Below are positions 11,276 to 13,384 of a stretch of 64,000 nt of DNA, piece by piece (position 1 is the first letter of the stretch; each line of letters starts with the position of its first letter). Below the pieces are notes generated by a model that saw only the letters and a program-made list of their open reading frames with translations, was not told the origin of the DNA and made no database searches. Both the position numbers and the translations under genes were made by a program. This stretch comes from Glaciecola amylolytica (GTDB taxonomy: Bacteria; Bacteroidota; Bacteroidia; Flavobacteriales_D; Crocinitomicaceae): NCBI GenBank assembly GCA_003856375.1, contig CP034120.1:3901501-3965500 (forward strand). Direction: 5' to 3'.

Positions 11276-11339
11276 ACATTGAAGTTAGGCCCCGAAGATA
11301 ATCTCTTTTCGTATGAAATTATTGGAAAATTGGGACATT

Positions 11340-12107
11340 TCAGGGATGAAACACTTTCAAGGCATTCTGAGTAGTCACTTCCTGCAATTGACTCAAAGGA
11401 AGTTCCAGAATTTCCGCCATTTTTTCTGCTGTGTGAACCACGTAAGCGCTTTCATTTCGTTTTCCGCGGTAAGGAACCGGCGACAAATACGGCGCATCCG
11501 TTTCCAGTAACAGTTTTTCCAAAGGAATGTGTTTCAGTGTTTCCGGAAGATCCGATTTCTTGTACGTTACAACACCTCCGATTCCGAAAGAAAATCCCTT
11601 GTAACCCAGAATTTTTTGTACATCCTGCTCATTTCCGGTAAAACAATGGAAAATTCCACGAAGCCTTTCATCGTTTTCCTGATCCAATACTTCGTAAATC
11701 TCCGGAAAAGAATCGCGTGCGTGAATCACTATCGGGAGCTGCATTTCTTTTGCCCATTGAATCTGGGTTCTGAATGCTTCTTTTTGCTCGTTGATAAACG
11801 TTTTGTCCCAATACAAATCAATCCCGATCTCACCAATAGCTACATACGATCTTTTGTCCAGCAACAGGCGCATTTTAGCCAAAACGAGTTCCCAGTTCGC
11901 ATCAACCGAACAAGGATGCAAGCCCATCATGGCAAAACAGTTTTCCGGAAATTGCTTTTCCAGCGCGTGCATTCCATCGATAGAATCCAGATCAATATTG
12001 GGCATATACATTCGTTCAACTCCAGCCGCAATAGCCCGTTGAATCATTTCCGTACGATCTTCACCAAACTGATCGGAGTAAAGATGTGTGTGTGTGTCGA
12101 TAAACAT
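11340..12107 (-). CDS. tatD: TatD family metal-dependent deoxyribonuclease
   Basis: A 255-residue TIM-barrel metal hydrolase with the full TatD metal set: DTHTH at 4-8, the HP motif (MGLHPC near 63), GEIGID near 92 supplying the glutamate, HARD near 128, HCF near 153 and ETDAPYL near 203. Family members are cytoplasmic 3'-5' exonucleases acting on DNA. The length is normal. The start codon region contains a (TG)n run that encodes the alternating T-H residues. A structured intergenic region separates it from the bacilliredoxin gene upstream. Confidence 0.93.
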   Translation of the reverse strand: MFIDTHTHLYSDQFGEDRTEMIQRAIAAGVERMYMPNIDLDSIDGMHALEKQFPENCFAMMGLHPCSVDANWELVLAKMRLLLDKRSYVAIGEIGIDLYWDKTFINEQKEAFRTQIQWAKEMQLPIVIHARDSFPEIYEVLDQENDERLRGIFHCFTGNEQDVQKILGYKGFSFGIGGVVTYKKSDLPETLKHIPLEKLLLETDAPYLSPVPYRGKRNESAYVVHTAEKMAEILELPLSQLQEVTTQNALKVFHP

Positions 12108-12113
12108 AATCTG

Positions 12114-12215
12114 GATTTTAGGGCTTCAGGACTACAAGATTTTAAGCTATTATTAATATAAAAGGACTTTAAGACAAAACGTCCTAAAGTCCCGAAATCT
12201 TGAGATCCTAAAATC
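12114..12215. repeat. 102-nt nested hairpin; inner part a likely terminator
   Basis: Three inverted pairs are nested: GATTTTAGG (12114-12122) with CCTAAAATC (12207-12215), CAAGATTT (12135-12142) with AAATCTTG (12195-12202), and GGACTTTAAGAC (12164-12175) with GTCCTAAAGTCC (12181-12192, one G:U). The innermost stem is followed on the minus strand by a T-rich stretch, so it can terminate the bacilliredoxin transcript. The outer pairs are not needed for that. Confidence 0.6.
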
Positions 12216-12222
12216 TCTTCTC

Positions 12223-12639
12223 TTAACAGAATTCCTCGTAAGCAGCAGCCAGATTCTCAGCAATCATTGCTGCGGTAACTCCTTCGATATTGTGTCTTTC
12301 TAAAAAGTGAACCAATTTTCCGTCTTTGAACAAAGCCACAGATGGTGACGATGGAGGAAATGGCAAGAAATATTTACGTGCTTGTTGTGTTGCATCAGTA
12401 TCAACTCCTGCAAAAACAGTCAGTAAATGATCCGGTTTTTTTCCTTCGTGATCCAAAGACAATTTCACTCCCGGACGTAAATTTCCTGCTGCACATCCGC
12501 AAACAGAGTTTACTACCACTAGAGCAACTCCTGTGCTGTTTGGAATAGTTGCATCAACTTCTGATGCTGAAACAAGTTGTTGAAAGCCCACACGTGTAAG
12601 GTCTTCCTTCATTGGTTGTACAAGTTCTGGTGGGTACAT
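12223..12639 (-). CDS. Bacilliredoxin, BrxA/BrxB family
   Basis: A 138-residue thioredoxin-fold protein of the BrxA/BrxB (YphP/YqiW) family, with the characteristic CGC active site at C47-G48-C49 (NSVCGCAAG). Known members remove bacillithiol from oxidised proteins; in Bacteroidota the partner thiol would be inferred. Start MYPPELVQPMKEDL and end are full length for the family. A TAACTTTG promoter box lies 21 nt upstream, and a hairpin terminator follows at 12164-12192. Confidence 0.93.
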   Translation of the reverse strand: MYPPELVQPMKEDLTRVGFQQLVSASEVDATIPNSTGVALVVVNSVCGCAAGNLRPGVKLSLDHEGKKPDHLLTVFAGVDTDATQQARKYFLPFPPSSPSVALFKDGKLVHFLERHNIEGVTAAMIAENLAAAYEEFC

Positions 12640-12660
12640 ACTATTTAAATTTTAATAGTA

Positions 12661-12668
12661 CAAAGTTA
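12661..12668 (-). promoter_or_regulatory. -7 promoter box TAACTTTG
   Basis: Minus-strand exact TAnnTTTG, 21 nt before the ATG of the bacilliredoxin gene. No clear -33 element. Confidence 0.55.
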
Positions 12669-12826
12669 CTGATTCTTCTTGCTTCGGAAAAGAAATGAGG
12701 ATTTCAATTTTTGCCAAATAACTTTAAAACGATTCTAAATGACGAAAAATTCAAATTTTTTCAACGAAATCGGAGTTTATCAACAAATTATTTATTTACT
12801 TTGTCCCAGATTAAAAAGGAAAAGAA

Positions 12827-13006
12827 ATGAATAGTTTTTGGTGGACACTCGGAAAAATTCTAAATGGTGCTTGGTTTTATGACAACATCGGTGATATCTT
12901 TAACTATTCTGTGATTCTTCTTGGATTCTTCGGATTATTCTACTGGTTGAACTGGCAAAACAAGTTCAATAAGCAAGCTGAAAAAGATCCGAATCAATTG
13001 AAATAA
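12827..13006 (+). CDS. Small membrane protein, 59 aa
   Basis: An open frame of 59 codons from ATG 12827 to TAA 13004-13006, with a purine-rich AAGGAAAAGAA just upstream as a ribosome site. It starts MNSFWWTLGKILNGAWFYDN, then one membrane segment (SVILLGFFGLFYWLNW, about 28-43) and a charged tail NKFNKQAEKDPNQLK. A perfect terminator follows 23 nt later, and a near-match promoter box (TTACTTTG, 12796-12803) lies ahead. The layout resembles small single-pass proteins of Flavobacteriales such as the DUF6341 type, but I cannot confirm the family. It is too short for many gene callers. Confidence 0.75.
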   Translation: MNSFWWTLGKILNGAWFYDNIGDIFNYSVILLGFFGLFYWLNWQNKFNKQAEKDPNQLK

Positions 13007-13029
13007 TTTATTCGATTTTAAATAGTTGG

Positions 13030-13057
13030 AAGGTCTTCGTTTGGAGACCTTTTTTAT
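13030..13057 (+). terminator. Terminator of the 59-aa protein gene
   Basis: AAGGTCT (13030-13036) pairs with AGACCTT (13045-13051) and is followed by a T run (TTTTTATTTT). Confidence 0.85.
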
Positions 13058-13135
13058 TTTCCGTTGGTACACGATGTACAGGGATATGTGCATTATCTGC
13101 ACCCAAACAAATTCCAGAATACAAAACGAGTTGTT

Positions 13136-13225
13136 TTTACCACAGATGCACAAATTAAACAGCTCGGCTACGTTCGCTTAAATGGCGACTGGTAAGCGTC
13201 ATAAAAAATCTGCGCATCTGCGGGA
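13136..13225. repeat. Dispersed long imperfect palindrome, copy A
   Basis: The ends 13138-13156 and 13207-13225 are inverted copies of each other with a few mismatches (ACCACAGATGCAC versus GCGCATCTGCGGG). The middle (13174-13191, TCGCTTAAATGGCGACTG) is found as an exact reverse complement at 38783-38800. It makes up most of the 378-bp gene-free stretch 13007-13384; nothing else is seen there. Confidence 0.6.
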
Positions 13226-13384
13226 AAAATAAAATGGGGTATCAATTCTGATGAATTCCCCACGTGTGGCGTACCTACCCACGCGAACCAACAGAAGTTT
13301 TCCTATTTTTATCCTTCGGGTAAAATCGGTTTCCAATTCCAATGGTTTAACTTTTTGAACCCATTCAACTTTTGAACTTGTTTT

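Follow-up and report, generated by a model that had tools for sequence, protein, structure and literature searches.

A gene-less inverted array of degenerate octamers between brx and tatD belongs to a dispersed family that also flanks S23p genes

Results

A degenerate octamer array fills the brx-tatD gap

In the 64-kb window (the whole stretch of DNA analyzed here), a single element occupies the entire 115-nt gap between the stop of brx and the start of tatD, two genes on the minus strand (Table 1). Its array arms together cover positions 12113-12216. The initial annotation had placed three inverted pairs nested around one center at this site, and all three are present: 12114-12122 with 12207-12215 (9 bp), 12135-12142 with 12195-12202 (8 bp), and 12164-12175 with 12181-12192 (12 nt, 92% complementary). 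Between the arms at 12114-12144 and 12185-12215, complementarity is 71% across 31 nt. A search of the window for inverted repeats (minimum 20 nt, within 150 nt) gave two, and the 12114-12215 element is the longer one. The extended fold proposed there was borne out by RNA folding of the 102 nt, at -28.4 kcal/mol on the plus strand (z = -4.92) and -33.0 kcal/mol on the minus strand, which is that of brx (z = -5.48); 0 of 200 shuffles folded as well on either strand. There is no single register for the outer pairing, and the predictions for the two strands pick different outer pairs: each arm repeats one 8-nt word, and the units are alike enough to let the outer stems pair in more than one register. 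Part of the inner-hairpin stem is itself the innermost octamer word.

Table 1. Features at the brx-tatD locus (positions within the window)
Feature	Position	Strand	Remark
tatD (PF01026), downstream gene	11340..12107	-	start adjoins left arm
Left arm, degenerate GAYWTYAR octamers	12113..12146	+	reading in steps of eight
Inner hairpin, terminator-like	12163..12193	-	14 pairs; T-rich tail on brx strand
Right arm, same GAYWTYAR octamer	12181..12216	-	reading in steps of eight
brx (Disulph_isomer, PF06491), upstream gene	12223..12639	-	stop adjoins right arm

The 102-nt element contains no open reading frame, including no PF05635 gene between its arms; an Rfam scan of 11900-12500 gave three weak matches, none overlapping the element, and no second GAYWTYAR array above threshold was found elsewhere in the 64-kb window. 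An intrinsic terminator is marked by a stem-loop with a T-rich tail behind it on the gene strand; such a site lies at 12193-12163 on the minus strand, one of three terminator-like sites in 11300-13100 (shuffles, mean 1.4). Separately, the intergenic stretch 13090-13235 holds a possible imperfect palindrome (CCACAGATGCACAAATT ... AAAATCTGCGCATCTGCGG) that may represent another repeat family.

The octamer word defines a family of inverted arrays

A search of the organism's own genome with 141 nt of DNA returned the query itself and one 39-nt partial match, as for a single copy, and it took a degenerate pattern to show the family. With three and a half units and up to three mismatches, this pattern gave 91 matches in the 4.6-Mb genome and 48 for a backward control (59 and 32 versus 36 and 12); some of the control matches are probably these very arrays, because reading the word backwards gives a similar word. 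A revised word pattern with at most one mismatch gave 64 matches versus 7 for the backward control. The suggestion of a palindromic mobile repeat built from a AGGACTTTA-like unit was thus right in kind, the unit being the octamer GAYWTYAR, which is found again in the genome and in relatives; the element did not prove to be an unconserved single copy, one of the outcomes named beforehand as refuting.

Array places scored as arms numbered 28 in the own genome and 70 when genomes G006 and G013 were added. At these 70 places the arms never ran in the order minus then plus: 45 had plus then minus, 12 plus only, and 13 minus only, where four of the single arms are two elements split by a gene (L043 and L241) and L047 was entered by the arm caller as minus only, though a plus arm is visible there. 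Many arms reach within about 10 bases of a gene edge, and the host gaps were codirectional in 48 cases, convergent in 15, and divergent in 7. The consensus fits at 2,243 of 2,359 fixed and 2,310 of 2,405 free positions, a fit that is partly by construction because arms were chosen by it. Five units is the commonest arm length (67 of 115 arms). At two places (L035 and L048), the loop between the octamer arms contains a hairpin of ordinary appearance, with an A-rich run on one side and a T-rich run on the other. In the reverse reading, the consensus becomes YTRAWRTC, which always contains TAA or TGA; with the 8-nt step, this places stops in all three frames beside gene starts, a remark derived from the consensus alone and not from counting.

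Octamer arrays occurred in 21 of 99 relatives (10 of 14 in the genus, 20 of 60 in the family, and 1 of 39 outside it), and in a sample of 296 genomes from the phylum, 4 had exact octamer-array matches, one of them being the own genome. Arrays of a sister heptamer, AGACNNN, are absent from the own genome and were found in up to 35 of the 99 relatives; this is an upper figure because the counts include simple tandem repeats, as in G097, where the backward control was as high. The 36 AGAC arms measured comprised four words in 19 cases, five in 15, and three in 2. The 20 heptamer loci were picked mostly with both arms already listed, and their arm order is therefore not independent evidence.

The word is kept, and the pairing is not

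When the two arms of an element were compared in phase, their best identity was 0.742 over 18 two-armed own-genome elements, versus 0.771 with right arms permuted, and the permuted identity was at least as high in 1,987 of 2,000 permutations. Folding with swapped arms covered 38 of 45 two-armed octamer places (loop no longer than 60 nt, arms shorter than 60 nt), together with 18 heptamer elements: swapped-arm hairpins of the octamer elements were more stable by 1.9 (plus) and 1.1 (minus) kcal/mol, and for the heptamer elements the difference was unclear (-0.4 and -0.2 kcal/mol; standard deviations, 0.9 and 0.8). Free triplets of the heptamers matched at 0.86 of 3 positions versus 1.09 when permuted, and 494 of 500 permutations were at least as high. 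No compensatory change between paired arms was found in octamer or heptamer elements. Covariation, whose absence the initial annotation had listed as refuting, was therefore lacking between outer arms by both permuted-arm identity and swapped-arm folding, and of the structured 3' RNA that it had considered only the inner, terminator-like hairpin stands. Selection for pairing in RNA does not account for the outer pairs.

These results bear directly on the view that the element is an ordinary intrinsic terminator whose long, stabilizing outer stems are selected for pairing in RNA. Such a view would account for the strong fold of the 102 nt, the terminator-like core, and the predicted hairpin at 14 of 14 orthologous gaps (see below), but an element's own arms are not more complementary than those of other elements and swapping them leaves octamer hairpins more stable, by the values given above, with no difference for heptamers; we consider it unlikely.

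The letters of the word are under constraint. Between orthologous arms, fixed letters differed between species at 34 of 474 positions and free letters at 152 of 490, in alignments made in phase, which favors fixed letters, and in totals that omit the almost unchanged pairs L033-L215, L033-L245, and L245-L215; of the 152 free-letter differences, 114 stay in the allowed class. Adjacent units avoid identity, with 4 of 340 pairs identical versus 15 expected, and mean identity was as low in 0 of 1,000 within-arm shuffles (long arrays at L232, L234, and L039 left aside). We infer that something reads the word, which would maintain it while exact repeats and exact palindromes are lost. One octamer element (L033 3063-3184, with L215 and L245) is, unlike the others, almost unchanged across three species; its first arm shows 0 differences over 62 positions between L033 and L245.

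The same data speak to a mutational by-product, in which slippage and hairpin template switching would make the arrays and the word would have no reader. One relative does carry 13 to 17 near-perfect GACATTAA units in an arm, which speaks for this origin; against it stand the avoidance of identity between adjacent units (4 of 340 versus 15), the lack of likeness in register between arms of one element, and a word common to many loci and species, which together make this origin very improbable.

Genomes of one genus carry different words behind brx

The gene brx was found in 14 of 14 genus genomes, each with a predicted hairpin behind it (in G003 the tatD start was not recognized automatically). 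By eye, the arms at these gaps were octamers in 5 genomes and AGACNNN heptamers in 8, and 1 gap held a plain terminator. A terminator-like core was present in 10 of 14 orthologous gaps under a relaxed rule (shuffles, 0.02) and in 4 of 14 under a strict rule demanding a perfect stem (shuffles, 0.03). On a tree of brx and TatD, the heptamer label changes at least four times and the octamer label at least three times at well-supported branches, and arm type at this gap carried no tree signal (6 changes, a number reached or undercut by 200 of 200 shuffles). Within the genus, one word has given way to another in this gap. Among 80 named brx loci, 3 of them unreadable, no confident octamer array was found behind brx, and the two closest named species have heptamers there. 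The gap behind brx reads the same in the public Fluviicola contig L088 and in relative G008, which makes Fluviicola the most likely genus.

The brx transcript might also give rise to a structured regulatory RNA or to a small RNA, the latter proposed in the initial annotation. The stable fold on the brx strand would suit either, but with no Rfam match on the element, no covariation, and turnover of the sequence at this gap, we regard it as highly improbable.

Spread within a relative

In G006, 143 nt are identical in two gaps with different neighbors on different contigs; the identity ends at the end of one arm and, on the other side, at the end of the shorter GACATTAA array. The pair represents one event, which could be transposition or conversion between existing elements, and no target-site duplication was seen by eye at the two copies. 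The claim of mobility therefore has a whole-element copy in its favor, though just one, and that in a relative. Also in G006, one arm at each of two gaps (L232 and L234) holds 13 to 17 near-perfect GACATTAA units and looks length-variable.

Inverted arms enclose S23p genes

In the thiS-thiC gap of the own genome (G000), G006, and G001, octamer arms lie on both sides of a gene of 117 or 118 amino acids, and the own-genome gene matches PF05635, the 23S rRNA intervening-sequence protein family (S23p), at 103.4 bits (cutoff, 33.8). A ThiS search returned 11 loci, 6 of them readable through to thiC, and three of these have the gene and its arms; in G007 the right arm remains, with what looks by eye like a remnant of the S23p gene, and G008 and G012 have neither gene nor arms. 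In the last two (L304 and L308), an unrelated, CCTCCCTTGAGGGAGG-type palindromic sequence fills the thiS-thiC gap without an S23p element. PF05635 is widespread: it was matched in 83 of 99 relatives, the own genome has four copies, and of 148 genomes sampled from the phylum, 116 gave a match.

To compare flanks, 74 S23p loci were assembled before scoring (34 initial loci and 40 taken down the list, some skipped); 71 were readable and 70 were scored, as one contains N. The mean inverted match between flanks was 17.6, versus 10.2 for permuted partners (standard deviation, 0.31) and 12.0 in direct orientation. A locus's own partner was the best of 70 at 19 loci and in the top five at 50; it fell outside the top five at 20 of 70, and 29 of 70 loci scored below 17. 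For 342 control genes, drawn from array-rich loci, the flank match was 9.75 versus 9.87 permuted, and a score of at least 17 was reached by 41 of 70 S23p loci versus 5 of 342 controls. The 30 S23p loci from other classes of the phylum gave 15.6 versus 9.7 permuted (standard deviation, 0.44), with 12 of 30 at 17 or above. Self-match within S23p flanks is highest at a lag of 7 (0.38 and 0.40, versus 0.31 and 0.30 in controls); at a lag of 8 it is 0.33 and 0.34 (0.32 and 0.32 in controls).

Octamer or AGAC arms in the right orientation were found on both sides of 10 of 71 S23p genes (octamer, 2; AGAC, 8) and of 0 of 342 controls, and both arms were wrongly oriented at 0 of 71 S23p genes and 2 of 342 controls; four of the ten armed loci were known before the count, arms having been known at L269, L325, L333, and L350. 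The octamer arms were at L269 and at L339, the latter in G005 and at a place other than thiS-thiC. S23p genes that precede a thiolase-like gene have differing flanking words in different genomes, which argues against a fixed pairing of a given S23p with a single word, and this variation mirrors the turnover at brx-tatD. Eight loci (L275, L280, L288, L297, L329, L335, L344, and L348) have an S23p gene in seemingly the same gap before the thiolase-like gene. At L213 (G013), heptamers lie on both sides of the S23p gene, TTCCTAA before and TTCGTAA after, and they seem to point the same way and not to be inverted. One solved structure is related to S23p by sequence, 2gsc (XCC0516), with five chains in the entry.

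Discussion

Our analyses show that the arrays form a family with an orientation rule, a constrained word, no arm-to-arm covariation, one whole-element copy, and an association with S23p genes. The reading we favor, with a probability of roughly 0.55, is that the element between brx and tatD is MITE-like and carries no gene, and that the dispersed family of which it is a member, inverted arrays of a degenerate octamer, belongs with S23p-bearing elements. In this family, two arms of about five 8-nt GAYWTYAR words each face one another across a core, here the terminator-like hairpin behind brx, and the enclosure of S23p genes elsewhere by GAYWTYAR arms or sister AGACNNN arms suggests that the family spreads with or beside S23p-bearing elements. 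S23p may read the words in RNA or single-stranded DNA, such reading may drive the spread or upkeep of the arrays, and the brx-tatD copy probably ends brx transcripts. The copy between brx and tatD lacks an S23p gene, which counts against its assignment to S23p elements.

The arrays might instead serve the host, as sites of a host DNA- or RNA-binding protein in 3'-end protection or as a barrier between genes, with S23p genes settling harmlessly in the loops. Constraint on the GAYWTYAR word, the reach of arrays to gene edges with just 7 of 70 gaps divergent, and the element nearly unchanged in three species are all consistent with this idea. It is nevertheless rather unlikely, in our judgment, because the inverted arms at S23p genes are built from many different words, in other classes too, indicating that arms go with S23p generally, and because the word at brx-tatD turns over within the genus.

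The association with S23p elements invites comparison with the S23p-type intervening sequences (IVS) of 23S rRNA, as in Coxiella burnetii. In the published account (PMC4990558), inverted repeats surround the S23p ORF of that IVS, as they do in members of our family, and tandem GACAGAT heptamers stand just before the ORF; the Coxiella IVS has a near-perfect 28-bp stem, whereas the arrays here are degenerate. The arms of the brx-tatD copy match in kind the arms around S23p genes, but unlike a 23S rRNA IVS, which RNase III cuts out, the element lies between protein genes, without an ORF and outside 23S rRNA. With MITEs it shares inverted ends, the lack of an ORF, and dispersed copies. REPs are likewise short, noncoding, intergenic, inverted, and dispersed. 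Octamer-array copies differ from both in sharing a degenerate word and not alignable sequence, and the GTAG or CGTC tag of REPs, as given in PMC3733652, is absent from GAYWTYAR. Arrays of TAACTGA are described from Beggiatoaceae, Cyanobacteria, and some Bacteroidetes in PMC4679880; like the arrays here they are tandem, intergenic, and next to genes, with a word of 7 nt, but they are direct and built on one exact word, whereas the octamer arrays form inverted, degenerate pairs that avoid exact neighbors. In the partial texts covered by our literature search, we recognized no description of octamer arrays or of their tie to S23p. We file the brx-tatD element among intergenic palindromic elements; in those texts, the Coxiella IVS heptamers and the TAACTGA arrays are the nearest published facts.

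How S23p might read the words is suggested by ring proteins. TRAP is a ring protein that reads tandem RNA triplets, and Avd of diversity-generating retroelements is a relative of S23p; the likeness may be one of principle, a ring of like subunits on a repeated nucleic acid. PMC4990558 describes the Xanthomonas S23p as a toroidal homopentamer. As arms often have five units, a natural guess is a pentameric ring reading one word per subunit. More tentatively still, and with less confidence than in our main reading, Bacteroidota at large could harbor a two-part selfish element made up of S23p and of inverted arrays with some five degenerate words of 7 or 8 nt, in which a ring would read one word per subunit, gene-less arrays would be nonautonomous, and arms would be swapped; arm swapping between elements would change the word at a site and leave the site and layout.

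Arms around small genes of obscure role hint at a little-studied type of mobile element. S23p proteins are said in PMC4990558 to have no known function, and the statistical tie to degenerate inverted arrays, seen also in other classes, would give them a concrete candidate ligand and gene-less partners. The family itself represents a repeat that keeps its word yet avoids exact repeats and palindromes, and repeat finders based on identity would tend to miss such sequences.
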